NCBI GenBank assembly: GCA_013178005.1
Contig: JABLXL010000033.1
Coordinates: 1-51,418, forward strand
Length of the DNA: 51,418 bases
Origin: Actinomycetota bacterium
GTDB lineage: Bacteria; Actinomycetota; Geothermincolia; Geothermincolales; RBG-13-55-18
Reading direction: 5' to 3'
Shown: one piece after another, positions 11,851 to 22,349 of the stretch
How the letters are laid out: every line of letters begins with the position of its first letter
Numbering within the stretch: position 1 is the first letter of the stretch
The notes under the pieces: model-generated
Databases searched by the model: none
What the model was told of the DNA's origin: nothing
The model's input: only the letters and a program-made list of their open reading frames with translations
Translations under genes and position numbers: made by a program

Positions 11851-12147
11851 CTAATCAACCTCACTCTGGTAATATGCGTCTTCGTATGAGTAGCCTTCAT
11901 TTTCGTGTGAGTCTTCTTCGTAGTCGCGCACCGGACGCCCGCGGCGCCTCAGTTCGTCGAAGCACGGCTTTTCCAGGAGCTCCTGGCCATCCTGGCCGTA
12001 GGCCTCTTCCGGATCCGCCCATTCCTCCACCCGAACGGCGTTGACATGGGGAGACGTGCCGGCGAACGGCGCGGAGAGGAAATCGTCCATATCCGTCATC
12101 TCGTGATGCCCGCAGAGATTGTCGTCAAGAAAATCGGCCGTTTTCAA
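11851..12147 (-). CDS. Small acidic hypothetical protein, TTG start
   Basis: A 98-residue acidic protein with a Tyr/Glu/Asp-rich C terminus (EGYSYEDAYYQSEVD). The start decision is clear: AAAGGAGGTGAAGGAA, nearly the full anti-Shine-Dalgarno complement, sits immediately before a TTG at 12145-12147, whereas the in-frame ATG at 12198 has none. No domain is recognised; low complexity suggests partial disorder. Pho-box-like repeats lie about 65-90 bases upstream, so it may belong to the phosphate regulon with the divergent phosphatase. Confidence 0.65.
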   Translation of the reverse strand: MKTADFLDDNLCGHHEMTDMDDFLSAPFAGTSPHVNAVRVEEWADPEEAYGQDGQELLEKPCFDELRRRGRPVRDYEEDSHENEGYSYEDAYYQSEVD

Positions 12148-12210
12148 TTCCTTCACCTCCTTTCGGCACGGATTGCCATCCACACTCTCAAGGATCATTA
12201 AGAGGGGCGT

Positions 12211-12239
12211 GGTTTACACCTGGGTTTACGGTTGGTAAA
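12211..12239. promoter_or_regulatory. Possible Pho box between divergent genes
   Basis: Read on the minus strand, TTTACC, TAAACC and TAAACC occur with 11- and 12-base spacing. They resemble the clearer TTTACC/TTTAAC arrays upstream of the kinase-like gene and pstS. The position, between the alkaline phosphatase and the small acidic gene, is right for phosphate control, but the repeats are fewer and less regular. The remaining gap up to 12566 holds no gene. Confidence 0.35.
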
Positions 12240-12566
12240 GGTCTTTAGAAATTCAGGTTGAATTTGTCGTCGGCGGATGCCCAAATCAACGACAGCATTG
12301 TGCTCACCGTGGATGGACCTCCTGCGAAGCAGTGTGGGTGCAATCCTTAATTGATCGGTAAATCAGGCTTCACCTCACCGCAACCCAAGCTTAAACTACG
12401 CGCCCTAAGCTCGGGGCCGTAGGCGGGGAAATTCGAGGTGGTGCGGAAGGAGGTGGTGTGCGCGCAAGCGGAGCGACGAAGAACCCCTTATCCACGACGC
12501 ACACAATGGCAAAGCGCGCAAAAGAGAGAGGAGGAGAGGAACGCTAAGCAGAGAGGAGTAGAAGAA

Positions 12567-13985
12567 ATGCGTTCGCTTCCAAAATATCGCAGAAGAGCAT
12601 GGGCTTACCTGGCCCTGGCGGTCGCCCTGGCCCTTTTTGCCTCGATCACAATGAGGATGTTCGAAATCGACAGCGCACACGCTTTGGGTCTGGGCAGCCG
12701 CAAGGTCAAGAACATTATTTTAATGATCAGCGACGGTTGCGGGTATAACCATATCGAGGCGACTGACTATTACGAAGCGGGAAGGAAGAAGGCCCAGGCC
12801 TATGAGCATTTTCCGGTTAGGCTGGGCATGAGCACCTACGAATACGAACTGGTCGATGGCGCCTACAAGCTCCTGGGCTACGACCCCCGCCGCGCATGGA
12901 GCGAGTTCGAATACGTGAAAGAGAACGCCACTGATTCCGCTTCCGCCGCCACCGCCATGTCCACAAGCTTCAAAACGAAGAACGGTGCCATCGGGGTGGA
13001 CGTCACTGACCGTCCGCTCTCCCATCTCGCACAGCGGGCGGAAGAGCTGGGAATGGCGACCGGCGTCATAACCAGCGTAGAGTGGAGTCACGCCACGCCA
13101 GCCGGGTTCGTCGCCCACAATCCTTCGCGGAACAACTACGAGCAGATTGCCAGTGAAATGATTAACAACAGCGCCACCGACGTGATCATGGGCTGCGGGC
13201 ATCCATGGTTCGACGACAACGGCCGGCCCAAGGCATCCCCCGGCTACAAATACGTCGGCGGCCAGGCGACCTGGGACGCCCTCGTTGCGGGCACCGCGGG
13301 CAAGGCGGTTGACGCCGACCACAACGGCATCATGGACGACGCGTGGAAGCTGATACAAGACCGCGCGGAGTTCCAGGTCCTGGCCAGCGGCCCCACTCCC
13401 AAGAGGGTGTGCGGCACCGCAAAAGCGTACACCACCCTGCAGCAGGGGCGGTCCGGCGACGGCAATGCCGCCCCCTACATCGTCCCGCTCACCCAGAGCG
13501 TGCCCACGCTGGAGGAGATGACCAAGGGCGCCCTGAACGTCCTCGATAACGACCGCGACGGGTTCTTCCTCATGATCGAGGGAGGCGCGGTCGACTGGGC
13601 CAGCCACGCCAACCAGAGCGGCCGCATGATCGAGGAGGAGATGGACTTCAACCACGCCGTTGATGCCGTTATCGACTGGGTGCGCCGCAACAGCAACTGG
13701 GCCGAGACCCTGCTGGTGGTCACGGGCGATCATGAGTGCGGTTATCTCTGCGGCCCCGGATCCGCCGCCGCGGGCAGGATACAGCCCGTGGTCAACAACG
13801 GCCGCGGCGCACTCCCGGGAATGGAATGGAACAGCGACGAGCACACTAACGCCCTGATCCCGCTCTACGTCAAGGGTTGGGCCTCCATCCATTTCTACCG
13901 TTACGCCAACGAGTTCGACCCGGTGCGGGGGCTTTACATCGACAACGCCGAGTTGGGAAAGTTGTTGTTCGGATTGCTGCGTTGA
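12567..13985 (+). CDS. phoA: Exported alkaline phosphatase
   Basis: A 472-residue metal-dependent phosphomonoesterase that releases phosphate from organic esters outside the membrane. The N terminus has basic residues and a hydrophobic segment (AYLALAVALALFASI), i.e. a signal peptide or anchor. The PhoA-type active site is complete: DGCGYNH metal ligand, TDSASAATAMST with nucleophile Ser near residue 124, EGGAVDWASHAN and VTGDHECG metal ligands, and DEHTNALIP near the end. GAGGAG precedes the ATG at 12567. The phosphate sensor and transporter genes follow on the same strand, so phosphate-starvation induction is very likely. Confidence 0.93.
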   Translation: MRSLPKYRRRAWAYLALAVALALFASITMRMFEIDSAHALGLGSRKVKNIILMISDGCGYNHIEATDYYEAGRKKAQAYEHFPVRLGMSTYEYELVDGAYKLLGYDPRRAWSEFEYVKENATDSASAATAMSTSFKTKNGAIGVDVTDRPLSHLAQRAEELGMATGVITSVEWSHATPAGFVAHNPSRNNYEQIASEMINNSATDVIMGCGHPWFDDNGRPKASPGYKYVGGQATWDALVAGTAGKAVDADHNGIMDDAWKLIQDRAEFQVLASGPTPKRVCGTAKAYTTLQQGRSGDGNAAPYIVPLTQSVPTLEEMTKGALNVLDNDRDGFFLMIEGGAVDWASHANQSGRMIEEEMDFNHAVDAVIDWVRRNSNWAETLLVVTGDHECGYLCGPGSAAAGRIQPVVNNGRGALPGMEWNSDEHTNALIPLYVKGWASIHFYRYANEFDPVRGLYIDNAELGKLLFGLLR

Positions 13986-14207: not shown

Positions 14208-14249
14208 GGCGGTATGATGATGGTCGAAGCGCCGGCGAGAGGACAGGTT

Positions 14250-14954
14250 GTGAAGAGGATCCTTATCATCGAGGACGAGAGGCCCCTGGCCGAGGCGGTG
14301 CAGTACAGCCTGGAAAAAGAAGGCTATGAGGTGGATATCGCCCTCGACGGGGAAAGGGGCTGGGAAAAGTTCACGGGAGGCAGCTACGATCTGATCCTCC
14401 TGGACCTCATGCTGCCCAGTATCGACGGCATGGAGATCTGCCGCCGCGTGAGGAGCTCCGGTTCCACGCCCGTGATCATGCTCACCGCCAAGGACTCCGA
14501 CGTGGACAAGATACTGGGGCTGGAGATGGGGGCGGACGATTACGTCACCAAGCCCTTTAACATGCGCGAACTGGTGGCGCGGGTGCGGGCGGTGCTGAGG
14601 CGCGCGGCCGGCGAGGGCGAGGCGCAGGCGGCCAAAGGCAAGCAGCTGCGGGCGGGGGACATAGTCCTGGACTCCGAGCGGCACGAGGTCAAGGTGGGCG
14701 GCAGGGTGGTGGAGATGCCGCTCATGGAATACCGCCTGCTGGAGCTCTTCATGCGCAACCCGGGCAAGGCCTTGGGGCGCGAATACCTTCTCAATAAGGC
14801 CTGGGAAGGGGACTTTTACGGACAGACCAAGACCCTTGACGTGCATATCAGGCGCCTGCGCGAAAAGATAGAGGAGGACCCGGCCAACCCCAGGCACATC
14901 ATCACCGTGCGCGGGGTGGGCTACCGTTTTGAGGCGGCTGAGGCGGAAACATGA
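14250..14954 (+). CDS. phoP: OmpR/PhoB-family phosphate response regulator
   Basis: A 234-residue transcription factor. The receiver domain (residues 1-120) has the acidic pocket EDE, phospho-acceptor Asp 52 in LLDLMLP, and TKPF with the conserved Lys. A winged-helix DNA-binding domain follows, ending in the typical ITVRGVGYRF. It should bind the TTTACC-type repeats upstream of pstS. I choose the GTG at 14250 (GAGAGG upstream, normal family N terminus) over ATG codons at 14214-14220, which coincide with the predicted transcription start. The gene overlaps the kinase gene by four bases (ATGA). The assignment to phosphate rests on linkage to pst, phoU and phoA. Confidence 0.9.
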   Translation: MKRILIIEDERPLAEAVQYSLEKEGYEVDIALDGERGWEKFTGGSYDLILLDLMLPSIDGMEICRRVRSSGSTPVIMLTAKDSDVDKILGLEMGADDYVTKPFNMRELVARVRAVLRRAAGEGEAQAAKGKQLRAGDIVLDSERHEVKVGGRVVEMPLMEYRLLELFMRNPGKALGREYLLNKAWEGDFYGQTKTLDVHIRRLREKIEEDPANPRHIITVRGVGYRFEAAEAET

Positions 14955-16732
14955 AGAGCCTGAGGCGCGTCCTCATCTTCAGGTACACGCTGGTCGTGGC
15001 CCTGGTGCTGATATCCGTAGCCTTGTCGGTGATTGTGCCCGTTAAATCCTTCACCATCTCCCGCGAGGAGGATGCCCTGGAGGACCAGGCGGAGCTCTTC
15101 GCCCGCATATTCCAACCCTTTTTCACGCCGGAAGGCGAACTGGCGAAGGAAATGGGCGACCTCGACGCTCACCTTGAGGGCCTGGCCTCGGACCTGCCGA
15201 CGCGCCTGACGGTCATCGACGCCTCTGGCCGGGTGCTGGGAGACTCCGATTTTCCCGCCGAGGAGATGGAAAACCACGCCGGAAGGCCGGAAGTGGCCTC
15301 GGCCTTACAGGGACGCACGGCGTCGTCCCGCCGCGAGTCGCGCACCTTGGGAAAGACCTTCATCTACGCCGCGTCGCCGGTGCTTGTCGAGGGGCGAGTG
15401 GTGGGGGTGGCGCGTGTGGCACTGGAGGAGGAAGACGTCAGCCCGGCGATCTTCGGGGTATGGTTGATAATCATCGCCGCCTTCGGGGTCTTGCTCCTGG
15501 TGATCGTGGCCGCAAGCCTGTGGACGGAGAGGTCCCTCACCGGGGAGCTCGCGGCCATGCGGGAGGCGGCGGCGGGACTGGCTTCCGGGGACCTGGAGCG
15601 CCGGGTGGCCGAGCCCGGGGTAGAGGACTTCAACGCCCTGGCGAGGGAGTTCAACGCCATGGCGGACGAGATAAGGCGCAGGATCGAGGAGGCGGGCAGC
15701 GAGAGGGGCAAGCTCGAGGCGGTGATCGAAAACATCTCGGCGGGGATCATGGTGACGGATTCGGAGGGGCGTGTCGCCATGCTCAACCGCGCCGCGGGCA
15801 AGATCCTGGGCTTGGGAGAGAGCGACGCGTTGGGACGTCGCGTGATAGAAATATTTACCAGTAGAGAACTGGACGCCATCGTGTCGCGGGCCACCGGGGG
15901 AGAAAGCGTCGAGGAGGAGATAGAGCTCCTGTACCCATCCCACATGGTGCTCAGGGTAAAGGCCAACCCGGTGCTGGGTTCTGACGGGAAAGTGGTTTCC
16001 GCCGTGAGCGTGATCGAGGACGTCACCGACCTCATGCGGCTCAACCGCATGCGACAGGATTTCGTCGCCAACGTGTCCCACGAGCTGCGCACCCCGGTTG
16101 CCTCCATCAGGGCCCTCGCCGATTCCCTTAGGGACGGGGCGCTGGACGACCGGGAGAGGGCGGGGCGTTTTTTGCATGACCTGGGTCGAGAGGCGAAGAG
16201 GCTTTCGCAGCTCATCGAGGACCTGCTCACCCTGAGCCGGCTCGAGGCCAAGGAGACCTCGCTGCAGCTCGAGGAGTTCTCGCTGCGGGAGCTGGTCAGG
16301 GATTGCCTGGAGGACAAGTCAAAGTTGGCCGAGGGGTTCGGCGTGCGTCTAGAGATGAACGAGCCGCGGGAGGACCTGACCGTGGTGGCGGACCGCGGCC
16401 TGATCAGGACGGCCCTCAACAACCTGGTGGACAACGCCATCAAGTACAACCGGCCGGGCGGCAGGGTGAGCGTGAGCGTCAGGGAGGGAGAAGGCGGGCG
16501 CGCGGTCATTTGCGTGGAGGACACCGGCATCGGGATACCCCGCGAGGAGATGCCACGCGTTTTCGAGCGCTTCTACCGCCTCGACAAGGCGCGCTCGCGC
16601 GAAACGGGGGGCACCGGGTTGGGGCTATCCATCGTGAAGCACATCGCGGACCTCCACGGCGGCGCGGTAGAGGTTCGGAGCGTGGTGGGTGAGGGGTCGA
16701 CCTTCACTATAACCCTGCCGCGTCGCGATTGA
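14951..16732 (+). CDS. phoR: Membrane sensor histidine kinase, PhoR type
   Basis: A 593-residue two-component sensor. Two membrane segments (residues about 10-33 and 158-182) flank an extracytoplasmic domain of about 120 residues. Then come a HAMP linker, a PAS domain, the H-box FVANVSHELRTP with phospho-accepting His near residue 377, and the ATPase domain with N-box NNLVDNAIKYN, G1 EDTGIGIP and G2 GGTGLGLSIV. The architecture matches Gram-positive PhoR. It is translationally coupled to phoP. Its ATPase domain is clearly homologous to the small protein encoded next. Confidence 0.93.
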   Translation: MKSLRRVLIFRYTLVVALVLISVALSVIVPVKSFTISREEDALEDQAELFARIFQPFFTPEGELAKEMGDLDAHLEGLASDLPTRLTVIDASGRVLGDSDFPAEEMENHAGRPEVASALQGRTASSRRESRTLGKTFIYAASPVLVEGRVVGVARVALEEEDVSPAIFGVWLIIIAAFGVLLLVIVAASLWTERSLTGELAAMREAAAGLASGDLERRVAEPGVEDFNALAREFNAMADEIRRRIEEAGSERGKLEAVIENISAGIMVTDSEGRVAMLNRAAGKILGLGESDALGRRVIEIFTSRELDAIVSRATGGESVEEEIELLYPSHMVLRVKANPVLGSDGKVVSAVSVIEDVTDLMRLNRMRQDFVANVSHELRTPVASIRALADSLRDGALDDRERAGRFLHDLGREAKRLSQLIEDLLTLSRLEAKETSLQLEEFSLRELVRDCLEDKSKLAEGFGVRLEMNEPREDLTVVADRGLIRTALNNLVDNAIKYNRPGGRVSVSVREGEGGRAVICVEDTGIGIPREEMPRVFERFYRLDKARSRETGGTGLGLSIVKHIADLHGGAVEVRSVVGEGSTFTITLPRRD

Positions 16733-16845
16733 ACGCGGAAACCCAGCGGGAACCTCCATGCTCCCAAGCCGGCTTCAAGGCTTGGAGCGATAAAGACAAC
16801 GCTCTTGCGAGCATTCGGGCAACCAAGTCGTGTACAGGTAGAGAT

Positions 16846-16893
16846 TTTACCTCGATTTCACCTTCGATTACCTGCTTTTAACCCGTTTTTAAC
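16846..16893 (+). promoter_or_regulatory. Five-site Pho-box array before the kinase-like gene
   Basis: TTTACC (16846), TTCACC (16857), ATTACC (16867), TTTAAC (16877) and TTTAAC (16888) follow one another at 11, 10, 10 and 11 bases, i.e. one face of the helix. This matches the direct-repeat PhoP/PhoB boxes of Gram-positive bacteria. A possible -10, TTGAAT, lies at 16904, about 10 bases beyond the last box, so the boxes would take the place of a -35. The gene starts at 16978. Confidence 0.7.
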
Positions 16894-16977
16894 TTCCGTT
16901 CGTTTGAATTTGGGTTGGTGCCCAGCCGATTCGCGAAGGCGCGGGCACCGAAAACGGAAAGGAAAGGAGGGAAAAAC

Positions 16978-17466
16978 ATGATGGTCGAGGAAATCGTGGT
17001 GAAAGAGCTCATCGAGGAATGTCTCGAGCGTAAGCGTGAAAAGGCCATGGAAAAAGGCGTCCGCCTATGCGCCGCGGAGGAAGACCGCGGTGCGGCCTGC
17101 CGGGCTGACCGCAAGCTGCTTCGCGCCGCTTTGGGAAACATGGTGGAAGCGGCCATCTTCTACAGCCGCTCCGGAAGCGTTATCACGGTCGGATGCCGCA
17201 GCGACGACATGCGCGAGGGCATCTACGTCGCCGGCGACAACGGCTGCATACCCTTCGATGAGCTGCGCACCATGCGCGACCTCTTCTGCCGCCCGACCAT
17301 GCCCGAGACAAGGGACGTAGAGGAGCTTCAAATGCCAATGACCTGCGTTTCCGTGGTCAAAGACATCGCGGACCTGCACGGCGGCATGGTCGGGGTGCGA
17401 AGCATGGAGGGAGATGGATTGACCCTGACCCTCTACCTTCCCCGCGCCCAGCGGGGAGTGGCTTGA
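16978..17466 (+). CDS. Stand-alone degenerate histidine-kinase ATPase domain
   Basis: A 162-residue protein that aligns along its whole length with the C-terminal ATPase domain of the adjacent PhoR. The segment KDIADLHGGMVGVRSMEGDG corresponds to PhoR's KHIADLHGGAVEVRSVVGEG. It has no phospho-accepting His region, no membrane segment and no sensor domain. The nucleotide motifs are altered: the N-box reads GNMVEAAIFYS without the key Asn, G1 reads GDNGCIP, and the G2 glycine loop is replaced by MPMTCVSVV. ATP binding is therefore doubtful. AAAGGAGGG precedes the ATG, and a five-site Pho-box array lies upstream. I infer a phosphate-starvation-induced partner or decoy for PhoR; no described family is recognised. 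Confidence 0.78.
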   Translation: MMVEEIVVKELIEECLERKREKAMEKGVRLCAAEEDRGAACRADRKLLRAALGNMVEAAIFYSRSGSVITVGCRSDDMREGIYVAGDNGCIPFDELRTMRDLFCRPTMPETRDVEELQMPMTCVSVVKDIADLHGGMVGVRSMEGDGLTLTLYLPRAQRGVA

Positions 17467-17825: not shown

Positions 17826-17901
17826 TTTACCTTCCGTTTACCAAGCGTTTATCGGGTTTTTAACCACGAGACACCCGTTTTTAATCCAAGGCGCCTGTAA
17901 T
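17826..17901 (+). promoter_or_regulatory. Pho-box array and promoter of pstSCAB-phoU
   Basis: TTTACC (17826), TTTACC (17837), TTTATC (17848) and TTTAAC (17859) are spaced exactly 11 bases apart. After one weak position, TTTAAT follows at 17880. A plausible -10, TGTAAT, lies at 17896-17901, 10 bases after the last box, again without a standard -35. This is the layout of an activator-dependent phosphate-starvation promoter. Confidence 0.75.
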
Positions 17902-17975
17902 GGGTTCGACGGACGGAGCATGGACGAAAGCGGAAGAAGCAACGGTTTATGGAGGAAAACAGAAGGAGGAAAAGC

Positions 17976-18842
17976 ATGACGAGAAGGAAGAGCCTGGGTA
18001 TCGCGACGGCGCTTTCGCTGGCTGTTGTCCTCGCCCTGGTCCTCGGAGCTGCCGGATGCGGAGACAAGGGCGGGGAAAGCCCGGCGGAGCCGGAGAAGCC
18101 GAAGCTCTCCGGGACCCTCAACCTCTCCGGCTCCACCACCGTGCTGCCCCTGGCCCAGGAGGCGGCGGACATGTTCATGGACGAGAACCCCGACGTGACC
18201 GTTAACGTGCAGGGCGGCGGTTCCAGCGTGGGAATCTCCAACGTGGCCGAGGGCGTGGTGGACATCGGCAACGCCTCGCGCGGCCTGAAAGATGAGGAGA
18301 AAAGCCTGGGTCTGGTGGACCACGAGATCGCCCTCGACGTCATCGTGGTGATCGCGCACAAGGACGTAGAGGTCGATGACCTCACGGCGGACCAGGTGTT
18401 CGGCATCTTCAGCGGCAAGATCACCAACTGGAAGGAAGTGGGAGGAAAGGACGCGCCCATTACCGTGGTGGTGCGCGACGAGGCCTCCGGAACCCGCGAG
18501 ATGTTCGATGAGAAGGCGCTGAAAAAGGAAAAGCCCAAGGAGGGCGCCATCGAGTGCAACAGCAATGGCGTCATGCGCCAGACCGTATCCAGCACCCCGA
18601 ATTCCATCGGCTATATCTCCCTGGGTTACCTGGACGGTTCCGTGAAAGCCCTTAAATATGGGGGGGTGCAGGGCAGCAAGGAGACGGCGGTCAACAAGAC
18701 CTACCCCCTCTCCCGCTACCTGCACATGTTCACCAAGGGAGAGGCCACGGGGCTCGCCAAGGCCTTCATCGACTTCGTCCTCTCGGACCGGTTCCAGGAC
18801 GAGGTGGTGGCCAAGGAATACATTCCCATGACCGAGATCTAG
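17976..18842 (+). CDS. pstS: Phosphate ABC transporter substrate-binding lipoprotein
   Basis: A 288-residue lipoprotein that captures inorganic phosphate outside the membrane and passes it to PstCA. The signal peptide ends in a lipobox (LGAAGC, Cys about residue 29). The mature part shows the PstS signatures SGSTTVLPLAQ, GGGSSVGI and RDEASGTREMF for phosphate binding. AAGGAGG precedes the ATG at 17976. It opens the pstSCAB-phoU operon and directly follows a Pho-box promoter. Confidence 0.95.
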   Translation: MTRRKSLGIATALSLAVVLALVLGAAGCGDKGGESPAEPEKPKLSGTLNLSGSTTVLPLAQEAADMFMDENPDVTVNVQGGGSSVGISNVAEGVVDIGNASRGLKDEEKSLGLVDHEIALDVIVVIAHKDVEVDDLTADQVFGIFSGKITNWKEVGGKDAPITVVVRDEASGTREMFDEKALKKEKPKEGAIECNSNGVMRQTVSSTPNSIGYISLGYLDGSVKALKYGGVQGSKETAVNKTYPLSRYLHMFTKGEATGLAKAFIDFVLSDRFQDEVVAKEYIPMTEI

Positions 18843-18905
18843 GGTTCCTCCTACGTTCCGGACGACTTGATCTCGGCAGTCGTAAAGAGGCAAGGGGGGT
18901 CGGAC

Positions 18906-19763
18906 TTGCAGGGAATAGACAGGGAATGGATAGTCAGGAAGACCCTGTTCGTCATGGCCATGATGGCGGTGCTGGGCGTACTGCTCATCGTCTTCTTCGT
19001 GGCCAGGGAGGCCATGCCCGCCTTCACGCAAGCCGGCCCCGCAAACCTCTTCTCGTCCGCCTGGGATCCCGCGGGCGGCCGCTACGGCATGCTCATCTTC
19101 ATAACGGGTACGCTTACGACCACCGTCGGGGGGCTTCTCCTGGGCGCCCCCCTTGCCATCGGCTCGGCACTGTTCCTGACCCAGATGGCCCCCCGGCGGG
19201 TTCGGTCGTTCTTCACCAGGGTCGTTGAGCTCCTGGCCGGCGTGCCCTCCATCGTCCTGGGTTGGCTGGGTTTTACGGTCATGGTCCCCTGGATCAGGGA
19301 GGCGACCGGCAGCCCAGGAACGGGAATACTTGCCGCCTCCATCATCCTTGCCATCATGGTGCTCCCCACCATCACCGCAATATCCAAGGACGCGCTGGAA
19401 GCGGTTCCCAGGTCATATCTGGACGCTTCGCTGGCCATGGGGGCCACCCGCTGGCAGACCGTTCGCAGGGTGCTCATCCCGTCGGCCAAGCCCGGACTGC
19501 TGGTGGCGGTGATCCTGGGCATGGGCCGGGCCATCGGCGAGACCATGGCTGTGGCCCTGGTCATCGGCCCGGCGACCGCCTACCCCACTTCCCTGACCTC
19601 CCCCACCCATACCCTGACCACCAAGATCCTCATGGAGATGGGGGAATCGACGGGCGTGCAGCGCTCAGCGCTCTTCGCCATGGGCCTGGTGCTGCTGCTG
19701 CTCTCCATGGCCTTGATCGTCCTGGTCAGGGCGGTTACGCGCGAGCGGAGGGAAGCGGCGTGA
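18906..19763 (+). CDS. pstC: Phosphate ABC transporter permease PstC
   Basis: A 285-residue inner-membrane permease with about six hydrophobic segments and the family's loop and motif pattern (LLAGVPSIVLGWLGF and the EAA-like PRSYLDASLAMGATRWQT). It pairs with PstA to form the phosphate channel. I place the start at the TTG at 18906 because AAGGGGGG lies just upstream; an earlier in-frame TTG at 18867 has no such site. The stop overlaps the pstA start (GTGA), indicating coupled translation. Confidence 0.9.
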   Translation: MQGIDREWIVRKTLFVMAMMAVLGVLLIVFFVAREAMPAFTQAGPANLFSSAWDPAGGRYGMLIFITGTLTTTVGGLLLGAPLAIGSALFLTQMAPRRVRSFFTRVVELLAGVPSIVLGWLGFTVMVPWIREATGSPGTGILAASIILAIMVLPTITAISKDALEAVPRSYLDASLAMGATRWQTVRRVLIPSAKPGLLVAVILGMGRAIGETMAVALVIGPATAYPTSLTSPTHTLTTKILMEMGESTGVQRSALFAMGLVLLLLSMALIVLVRAVTRERREAA

Positions 19764-20752
19764 GCGGCCTGGAGGTCAAGACGGTGGAAGAGGAGGGCTT
19801 GCGCGTGGAAGTGGCGGCCGGGCTCTGTGAGAGCAGGGACGAACGGCTGGAAAGGGTTATCAGGCAACATATCGAGAGGCATAAACGCAGGGCCGCCGCG
19901 GCCGACCGCGCCTTCACCGCAGCGACCTGGGCGGTGGCGGCGGTGGCTCTGGGCATACTCGCGTTCATCGTTATAACTATCTTCGCGCGCGGCCTGGGCA
20001 CCGCCCTGAATCCCGGATTCCTGTTCGGTAAGCCCCAGGCCATAAAGGAGGGAGGGGGCATATGGCCCATGGTGGTCTCGTCTTTCTACCTGGCCGCGCT
20101 CACCGTGGCCATGGTGGTGCCGGTGGGAGTGGGGGCCGCAGTCTACATGTCGGAGTTCGCGCGCGAGGGCCGGGTGACCAGGCTGGTGCGCTTAGGTGCG
20201 GACGTGTTGTCCTCGGTCCCCTCGGTGGTGTTCGGCATATTCGGAATGGTGCTGTTCGTGGTCTATCTGGGGCTGGGATATTCGCTGCTGGCGGGAGCCC
20301 TCACCCTGACACTGCTCAACCTGCCCACGGTGATGCGCACCTCCGAGGAGGCGCTCAGGGCCGTGCCCGTCTCGTACCGCGAGGCCTCCCTGGCGCTGGG
20401 CGCCTCGCGATGGGAAACGGTGAAGCGGGTGGTGCTGCCGAGCGCCGCCCCGGGCATCACCACCGGCGCCGTGCTCGCGGTGGGCAGGATCGTGGGGGAG
20501 AGCGCCGCGGTCATCTACACGGTGGGGATCTTCGTGCGCAAGATACCGGTTTCTCCCCTGCAGCCGGCAGCTCCCATGGCTGCCCATATCTGGCACACCT
20601 ATACCGAGGGGGCGCTGGTGTCGGACTGGATGAGGATCGCCAACGGGGAGGCGGCATTTCTCCTCCTGTTGGTGTTGGCGTTGAACCTTGGCGCGCGGCT
20701 GTTGACGCGCGCCCTGGCGAAGAAGACGGGGACGGTGAAGGGGAATGAATGA
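19760..20752 (+). CDS. pstA: Phosphate ABC transporter permease PstA
   Basis: A 330-residue inner-membrane permease, partner of PstC. About 50 charged residues precede the first membrane segment, an N-terminal cytoplasmic extension not always found in PstA. The permease core includes VLSSVPSVVFGIFGM and the EAA-loop PVSYREASLALGASRWET. The GTG at 19760 overlaps the pstC stop and has GGAGGGAAG upstream. The 3' end is part of a 122-base local duplication that also includes the start of pstB. Confidence 0.92.
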   Translation: MSGLEVKTVEEEGLRVEVAAGLCESRDERLERVIRQHIERHKRRAAAADRAFTAATWAVAAVALGILAFIVITIFARGLGTALNPGFLFGKPQAIKEGGGIWPMVVSSFYLAALTVAMVVPVGVGAAVYMSEFAREGRVTRLVRLGADVLSSVPSVVFGIFGMVLFVVYLGLGYSLLAGALTLTLLNLPTVMRTSEEALRAVPVSYREASLALGASRWETVKRVVLPSAAPGITTGAVLAVGRIVGESAAVIYTVGIFVRKIPVSPLQPAAPMAAHIWHTYTEGALVSDWMRIANGEAAFLLLLVLALNLGARLLTRALAKKTGTVKGNE

Positions 20753-20870
20753 GGTTGCGTGCGGGGCATGCGGCAGATTCGAGTTGGAGGGGGTAAGCCT
20801 CTTCTATAACGGCTTCAAGGCCCTGGAGGGCATCGACCTCAGGGAAGACGGGGACGGTGACGGGAAATGA
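20745..20870 (+). pseudogene. Truncated duplicate of the pstB 5' end
   Basis: A 41-codon frame starting within the last bases of pstA and ending on a TGA that overlaps the ATG of the full pstB. It repeats the first 34 codons of pstB ([20 protein letters not shown] against [20 protein letters not shown]), then runs into a copy of the pstA 3' end. The two copies are 122 bases apart and differ at about eight positions. Its initiation region is as good as that of pstB, so the peptide may be made. It carries no Walker motif and cannot be an ATPase. Confidence 0.75.
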
Positions 20871-21661
20871 CTGAGGTTGCATGCGGGGCATGCGGAAAAT
20901 TCGAGTTGGAGGGGGTAAACCTCTACTATAACGGCTTCAAGGCCCTGGAGGGCATCGACCTCAGGATAGAGAGGTGCAGCATAACCGCCTTGATCGGGCC
21001 CTCGGGATGCGGCAAGTCCTCGGCCCTGCGCTGCCTCAACCGCATGAACGACCTCATCCCGGGCGCCAGGGTGGAGGGCCTGGTATCGCTGGACGGAGAG
21101 GACGTCTACCAGCGCGGGTATGACGTGGTGGAGTTGCGCAAGCGCGTTGGCATGGTTTTCCAGAAGCCAAACCCTTTTCCCAAGTCCGTTTACGAGAACG
21201 TGGCCTACGGACCAAGGCTTTTCGGCATAAAGGACAAGGAGACCCTGGACGACATCGTGGAGAGCAGCCTGGTCAGCGCGGCCCTCTGGGACGAGGTGAA
21301 GGGAAAGCTGAAAAGCTCCGCGCTGGCCCTCTCGGGAGGCCAGCAGCAGCGGCTGTGCATCGCCCGCGTGCTGGCGGTGCAGCCCGAGGTGATCCTCCTG
21401 GACGAGCCCTGCTCCGCCCTGGATCCCATTGCCACCCAGCGTATCGAAGACTTGTTGGTGGAGTTGAAGTCCAGGTACACCATAGTGATAGTGACGCACA
21501 ACATGCAGCAGGCGGCCAGGGTCAGCGATTACACCGCCTTCTTCATGATCGAACAACAGGGCGATCCGGGCAGGGTAATAGAGTACGACACGACCAACGC
21601 CATTTTCACCAACCCGAAGGACGAGCGCACGGAGCGTTACATAACCGGGAGGTTCGGATGA
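20867..21661 (+). CDS. pstB: Phosphate ABC transporter ATPase PstB
   Basis: A 264-residue ATPase that powers phosphate import through PstCA. Walker A is GPSGCGKSS (near residue 45), the signature is [13 protein letters not shown], Walker B is [13 protein letters not shown], followed by the switch His in [10 protein letters not shown]. An N-terminal CGACG motif precedes the usual beginning of the domain and is not typical of PstB. The first 40 codons are duplicated upstream. phoU follows after 28 bases. Confidence 0.95.
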
Positions 21662-21689: not shown

Positions 21690-22349
21690 ATGGAGCTGAG
21701 AAGGGATTTTCACCAGCGGCTGGACGAGCTATACGCGGAGACCCTGCGCATGGGAGGCGACCTCCTGGAGACCATCGAGAAAACGCGCATCTGTTTCGCT
21801 ACCCTGGATCGTGGCCTGGCGGAGGAGATAATCGCCGGAGACGACCTCTTCGACGCCTACATCGACCGCATCGAGGAGGGAGGGATGGAGCTTATCGCCC
21901 TGCAGGCTCCCGTGGCGGTGGACCTGCGCAGGATAATGGTGATCATGCGCATGGCCCAGCATTTCGAGCGCATGGCCGACCTCTGCGAGGACATCGCCCA
22001 GGCGGTCAGGCACCTTCCCTCGGATTCCGTGAGCTCCTGGATGCGGGAAGCCATCGACGAGATGGCGCGCCGCGCCGTGCGCCTGGTGGAGCGCTCCATC
22101 GAATGCTTCAAGGAGCGCAGCGTGGAGATGGCCATGGAGCTCGACGCCATGGACGACGCCGTGGACAAGCTGCACCGCAAGTTCTTCAAGGAGTTCGACC
22201 GCGGGCGCGAGGAGGACCTGGAGGTGGCGGTGCGCGTGGTCATGGTGGCGAGGTTCTTCGAGCGCATCGCGGACCACGCCGTGGACATCGGGGAGCACGT
22301 ACGTTTCATGGTGGAGGGCACCATAAGCCCGAACCCCCAAAGCCGTTAG
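21690..22349 (+). CDS. phoU: Phosphate signalling protein PhoU
   Basis: A 219-residue cytosolic helical protein that couples PstSCAB activity to PhoR and represses the Pho response when phosphate is plentiful. Both three-helix PhoU repeats are visible: the first contains PVAVDLRRIMVIMRMAQHFERMADL, abridged as PVAVDLRRIMVIMRM…, and the second contains RVVMVARFFERIADHAVDIG. It begins with SD GGGAGAGG and an ATG at 21690. The operon ends with it; a perfect 125-bp tandem repeat begins six bases after the stop. Confidence 0.94.
   Translation: MELRRDFHQRLDELYAETLRMGGDLLETIEKTRICFATLDRGLAEEIIAGDDLFDAYIDRIEEGGMELIALQAPVAVDLRRIMVIMRMAQHFERMADLCEDIAQAVRHLPSDSVSSWMREAIDEMARRAVRLVERSIECFKERSVEMAMELDAMDDAVDKLHRKFFKEFDRGREEDLEVAVRVVMVARFFERIADHAVDIGEHVRFMVEGTISPNPQSR

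Follow-up and report, generated by a model that had tools for sequence, protein, structure and literature searches.

The window analyzed here, that is, the whole 51,418-nt stretch of DNA, belongs to Ca. Geothermincolales, judged by its nearest named relative, Ca. Solincola sediminis. It carries a phosphate locus with the gene order phoA, phoP, phoR, a gene for a stand-alone CA domain, and pstS-pstC-pstA-pstB-phoU (Table 1). The names phoP and phoR rest on synteny with the pst genes, and the profile scores of both lie below the equivalog cut-offs. A preliminary description of this DNA had singled out the small gene between phoR and pstS, which is the subject of our analysis.

Table 1. Features of the phosphate locus, in window coordinates, and the basis of each assignment
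Feature	Position	Strand	Basis
phoP, OmpR/PhoB-type response regulator	14214..14954	+	Pfam Response_reg and Trans_reg_C; NCBIfam YycF/PhoB-like, below cut-off
phoR, intact membrane sensor kinase (HAMP, PAS, HisKA, HATPase_c)	14951..16732	+	PnpS/WalK/PhoR-like, below equivalog cut-offs
Array of five Pho-box half-sites, period 10-11 bp	16846..16894	+	PWM from pstS promoters of other genomes; shuffles
pstS-type core promoter: ACCCGTTTTTAA, then -10-like TTGAAT (16904-16909)	16880..16909	+	Same register in pstS promoters
Strong Shine-Dalgarno AAAGGAGGG	16963..16971	+	Sequence
Stand-alone degenerate PhoR-type CA (HATPase_c) domain protein, 162 aa	16978..17466	+	ORF, profile, alignment, predicted fold
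Pho boxes of the pstS promoter	17826..17866	+	PWM scan
pstS	17949..18842	+	PF12849; synteny kept in relatives
pstC	18867..19763	+	ORF; gene order kept in relatives
pstA	19829..20752	+	ORF, start within a longer frame; order kept in relatives
pstB	20867..21661	+	ORF; order kept in relatives
phoU	21690..22349	+	PF01895; order kept in relatives

Pho-box-like repeats can also be found on the plus strand at 12367-12399, 5' of the gene for alkaline phosphatase (about 12540-13985). Minus-strand repeats of the same kind (12209-12241, triple score 19.0) lie just 5' of an ORF on that strand (11851-12198) that is divergent from phoA and would encode an acidic protein of 115 aa without a Pfam match. Homologs of this ORF were found in none of 19 relatives, so it may not be a gene.

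The stand-alone ORF opens with ATG, and AAAGGAGGG lies 6 nt ahead of it. The PF02518 (HATPase_c) profile matches residues 44-157 of the protein (E = 1.4e-6; 29.1 bits against a cut-off of 26.4), the Pfam search gave no HisKA match, and the first residue falls after the DHp of PhoR. The protein aligns end to end with the CA domain of the neighboring PhoR (window 16265-16729) at 39% identity, just as the preliminary description had claimed, and in a similarity search PhoR CA domains, including that of its own neighbor, ranked nearest after the orthologs. That description had also reported the loss of the phospho-accepting His region, the N-box Asn, and the G2 loop, and our alignment agrees: relative to PhoR, the N-box Asn has become Ala58 and the GGTGLGL loop of G2 is gone. 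In addition, the G1 Asp is replaced by Gly86, a position at which a one-residue register shift (to Asp87) is possible. Hence every hallmark of an active histidine kinase that we looked for (phospho-accepting His/DHp, N-box Asn, G2 GxGxGL loop, and G1 Asp) is missing, as is, by profile and by predicted fold, the DHp four-helix bundle with its His that marks ChpT and Spo0B.

The same positions were compared among six copies of the gene, namely, the main copy from each of five genomes and a second copy from one of them, G014. The Mg-binding Asn of the N-box is A/A/I/M/A in the main copies and D in the second G014 copy, and other residues have taken the place of the G2 GTGLGL loop throughout the six. 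The G1 Asp is retained only in G012 and in the first G014 copy, being lost from the other three main copies. Because this residue is lost in the window copy yet present in two orthologs, the ATP motifs appear from the alignment to have been lost stepwise. The charge of the lid segment also differs, from a net +1 in PhoR to -3 to -5 in four of the five main stand-alone copies and neutral in the fifth. Other features are retained, among them Phe103 and Arg105 in the F-box and residues D44, L47, A51, N54, A59, G66, and S125. The final strand also persists, as does LH-G within the DLHGG motif.

AlphaFold2, run with seven sequences from the window and related loci, modeled the stand-alone protein as the alpha/beta sandwich typical of a CA domain (pLDDT 81, pTM 0.79), and pLDDT dropped below 50 only in the former lid (residues 108-116) and the last residues. 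In structural comparisons using Foldseek and VIA-align, the best match was the pseudokinase DivL, which superposed over 142 residues at 2.0 A with Z 21.6; ordinary CA domains came next, at Z of about 17-21. DivL was also the best sequence match in the PDB (1e-8). A shared fold is no proof of a shared function. Taken together, alignment and model predict a protein that has lost ATP binding and catalysis and has kept the CA fold. The altered pocket might still bind a ligand, either a different nucleotide or a metabolite, which would make the protein a separate sensor. This idea gains something from the two orthologs with a G1 Asp and from SspH, a HATPase-only protein that needs its pocket residues to work (PMC9137472). 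We consider it improbable, however, in view of the Asn and G2 losses common to all copies, the loss of the G1 Asp from most main copies, and a replaced lid that is modeled so poorly.

Upstream of the gene lie five TT(W)AMC-like units, which begin near positions 16846, 16857, 16868, 16878, and 16889. We scored them with an 11-nt Pho-box PWM trained solely on pstS promoters of relatives that do not have the stand-alone gene. The top pair match in the window on either strand, 21.3 at position 16844, lies 5' of the stand-alone gene, above the 15.6 of the pstS promoter, and the best triple is at 16865. None of 1,000 dinucleotide shuffles of the intergenic region reached 21.3, which bears out the earlier reading of five Pho-box half-sites between phoPR and pstS. 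When the intergenic regions of all five genomes were each shuffled 1,000 times, the counts of shuffles that equaled the real score were 0, 6, 0, 0, and 1. The best match of the searched stretch was likewise 5' of the stand-alone gene in G002, G014, and G012, and in G003 the pstS promoter scored first and that of the stand-alone gene next.

In the genomes compared, the boxes of both the stand-alone gene and pstS are followed by a ACCCGTTTTTAA-like sequence and then, in the same register, by a TTNAAT-like -10 element. No sigma-70 -35 box was found in the promoter of the stand-alone gene; activator-dependent Pho promoters usually do not have one. The established PhoP site in Streptomyces consists of 11-nt direct repeats, the DRu definition for actinobacteria (PMC7866108), and units of this kind lie upstream of the gene in all five genomes. 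We conclude from the sequence of these elements that the gene has a Pho-type (pstS-type) promoter, and its expression would be expected to rise in phosphate starvation.

With regard to conservation, homologs at the same position, for which the preliminary description had suggested a search, were found in four other Ca. Geothermincolales genomes (G002, G012, G014, and G003). The five carriers, few in number and uncultured, span three genera: G002 groups with the window genome (G000), G012 and G014 form a second genus, and G003 represents a third. The gene sits between phoR and pstS in every one of them (phoPR-X-pstSCAB), and the five main proteins can be aligned over 162 columns with no internal gap, the orthologs being 40-54% identical to the window protein. 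The strong ribosome site that the preliminary description had noted recurs as AAAGGAGG in each of the five main copies. Seven relatives in which the region is resolved (G005, G006, G007, G009, G010, G011, and G013) have phoR followed by pstS and so manage without the gene, which counts against assigning it a feedback role. One non-carrier shares a genus with two carriers. G001, of the same genus as the window genome, is uninformative on presence, as its contig begins inside pstS. The named relatives are metagenome-assembled genomes. A search of 396 genomes across the phylum gave no ortholog outside the family at E <= 1e-28, a threshold at which convergent copies elsewhere would have gone unseen, and a scan of genome contigs recovered three known orthologs only.

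In G014, a second, more degenerate tandem copy lies directly 3' of the first (L022:4622-5098). It shows 33% identity to the window protein, has Pho-like boxes scoring 16.8 and a weak ribosome site, and could be either decaying or specialized. A second, diverged pstS-pstC-pstA set adjoins the first in G012 (L023:9800-12353), G003 (L024:2489-4930), and G007 (L025:627-3051). Elsewhere in the window genome, on contig C26, a short HATPase_c ORF of 189 aa (L069:2394-2963, minus strand) lies near a 660-aa sensor kinase; its N-box Asn and G1/G2 motifs are apparently intact, and it may be a further kinase domain that stands alone or has been truncated. A stand-alone match in G024 (C28:50971-51435) is in fact a sensor frame that is broken and contains N, and was rejected as an ortholog.

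A phylogenetic tree united the stand-alone copies in one clade (100/99 ultrafast bootstrap/SH-aLRT, with the long-branched second copy left out), apart from 19 PhoR domains and with internal branching that matches the genera. Support for the PhoR group was 60/67, so that the tree does not place the stand-alone clade within PhoR. Given a single clade that branches by genera, no ortholog outside the family, and seven relatives without the gene, the simplest history would be that the PhoR CA domain was duplicated once in the family and the copy then inherited vertically, with some loss.

Pairwise dN/dS values (NG86) for the gene were 0.184/0.911 = 0.20 between G014 and G012 and 0.362/1.225 = 0.30 between G000 and G002, and the PhoR CA domain gave 0.233/1.176 = 0.20 and 0.180/0.628 = 0.29 for the same pairs; with dS near saturation, these ratios are rough, though far from 1. 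They indicate that the gene is maintained under purifying selection. Patchy presence, motif loss, and the still more degenerate second copy in G014 could also be expected if phoR had been duplicated in tandem and the gene were a functionless remnant in decay. We hold this to be highly improbable, since the frames stay open and nearly constant in length across about 50% protein divergence, the ribosome site and Pho-box promoter are conserved, and dN/dS is only 0.2-0.3. An assembly frameshift of a full kinase was ruled out: an intact phoR ends 245 bp upstream, and each ortholog, from an independent genome, has a frame of its own. The sequence-level findings that the preliminary description would have taken as contrary to its proposal did not appear, in that no ortholog has intact ATP motifs, each has a separate phoR just upstream, and dN/dS is far below 1.

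How might such a protein act? With neither a DHp nor an ATP site, it could not act as a kinase does, and a binding role is what is left. Since it has the CA fold of PhoR, the PhoR surfaces touched by PhoR's own CA domain are the first candidates, and since a pstS-type promoter should switch on once PhoP~P is high, feedback is the natural reading. We therefore favor, at about even chances of being right, a PhoR-derived feedback modulator of the phosphate-sensing complex that is made from a PhoP-type promoter, works by non-catalytic binding, and is likelier to restrain than to activate. In such a scheme, a copy of the PhoR CA domain would have been duplicated and cut down, losing ATP binding and catalysis and keeping its fold. 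Starvation would raise PhoP~P, and the protein would be produced from its PhoP-type promoter. It would then bind the phosphate-sensing complex, most likely at the DHp or PAS surface that PhoR's own CA domain uses, with PhoP or PhoU as alternative partners. An occupied DHp or PAS surface may in turn limit or reshape the kinase/phosphatase output of PhoR. Both the partner and the sign of the effect are inferred. Precedents exist for such contacts: Sda and KipI are thought to block the CA-DHp contact in other kinases (PMC12189002), and a ThkA-type PAS-CA contact has been discussed (PMC4211667). Moreover, PhoU1 shifts the mycobacterial kinase SenX3 towards phosphatase and is itself induced by SenX3-RegX3 (PMC12301784).

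A target other than PhoR seems unlikely to us. As a decoy, the protein could sequester either the response regulator or the PhoU connector and change the output downstream of, or beside, the kinase. The pseudo-kinase ChpT retains a functionally degenerate CA domain beside a domain that handles response regulators (PMC9981736), and PhoU is the known connector to PhoR (PMC12501420). Both phoP and phoU are present in the locus. Response regulators dock mainly on DHp helices, however, and these the stand-alone protein does not have at all. Slightly less likely still is an activator or stabilizer that binds PhoR and favors its kinase state or blocks PhoU-driven switching to phosphatase, giving positive feedback and a sharper switch. 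Accessory proteins such as CvnF8 can stimulate kinases (PMC13343842), and positive feedback would fit the promoter evidence equally well, but the known one-domain regulators derived from two-component systems and wired alike, FixT and Osp, are inhibitors. It is by analogy with these two that we favor a brake.

FixT (Caulobacter, Sinorhizobium) and Osp (Rhodobacter sphaeroides) resemble it in wiring, as one-domain proteins of two-component origin that feed back on a kinase (PMC7078487, PMC9430884). The gene osp is switched on by the response regulator of its own system (PMC9430884), and the stand-alone gene likewise appears to carry a promoter site for its own response regulator, judged here from the Pho boxes of five genomes. 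Both FixT and Osp, however, are receiver-domain proteins of demonstrated inhibitory action, whereas the window protein is a CA domain by profile and predicted fold whose inhibition we infer. It could tentatively be seen as the first kinase-derived counterpart of FixT and Osp, a pseudo-CA domain, split from PhoR by duplication and controlled by PhoP, that would take the place of the real CA domain and in this way inhibit or reset the kinase from which it came; we rate this specific version as somewhat short of even.

Other systems resemble it in part. HATPase-only proteins are common in Streptomyces, and SspH, like the window protein, is an actinobacterial single HATPase domain; unlike it, SspH requires its N-box Asn54 and Asp84, whereas none of the copies studied here has the Asn and the window copy also lacks the Asp. 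The available part of the SspH paper gives no tie to a kinase operon (PMC9137472). DivL (Caulobacter), the closest solved structure and PDB sequence match, is a kinase fold repurposed for regulation, but it has a PAS and a DHp (Tyr for His) and another role, and its CA domain is reported to be dispensable. In RetS-GacS, one protein uses its kinase region to keep another kinase from autophosphorylating (PMC12148439), although it does so through a DHp-DHp heterodimer, and the window protein has no DHp. PhoU and the DUF1127 small proteins that act on PhoR/SenX3 are accessory tuners of a phosphate sensor, and PhoU1 is starvation-induced, but their folds are unrelated and not kinase-derived. The split kinases CheA3/CheA4 also divide the work of a kinase between separate chains (PMC3591291). 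Their catalytic domain is active, in trans, whereas the stand-alone domain is predicted to have lost catalysis and has a complete PhoR beside it.

The open-access literature, outside which most subscription journals fall, turned up no pseudo-domain consisting of a CA alone that derives from its parent system, lies next to it, and seems to be under its control. On phosphate in these organisms, the same literature yielded nothing useful. To that extent the statement in the preliminary description that no such component had been described stands, but relatives in design do exist in FixT, Osp, SspH, DivL, and RetS. Feedback on two-component systems by free receiver domains is known, and so are pseudokinases with a DHp (DivL, RetS). 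A free, catalytically dead kinase domain that feeds back on the very kinase it came from would, if true, be new as far as we have found. Its wiring would resemble that of FixT and Osp, with the part itself coming from the kinase.
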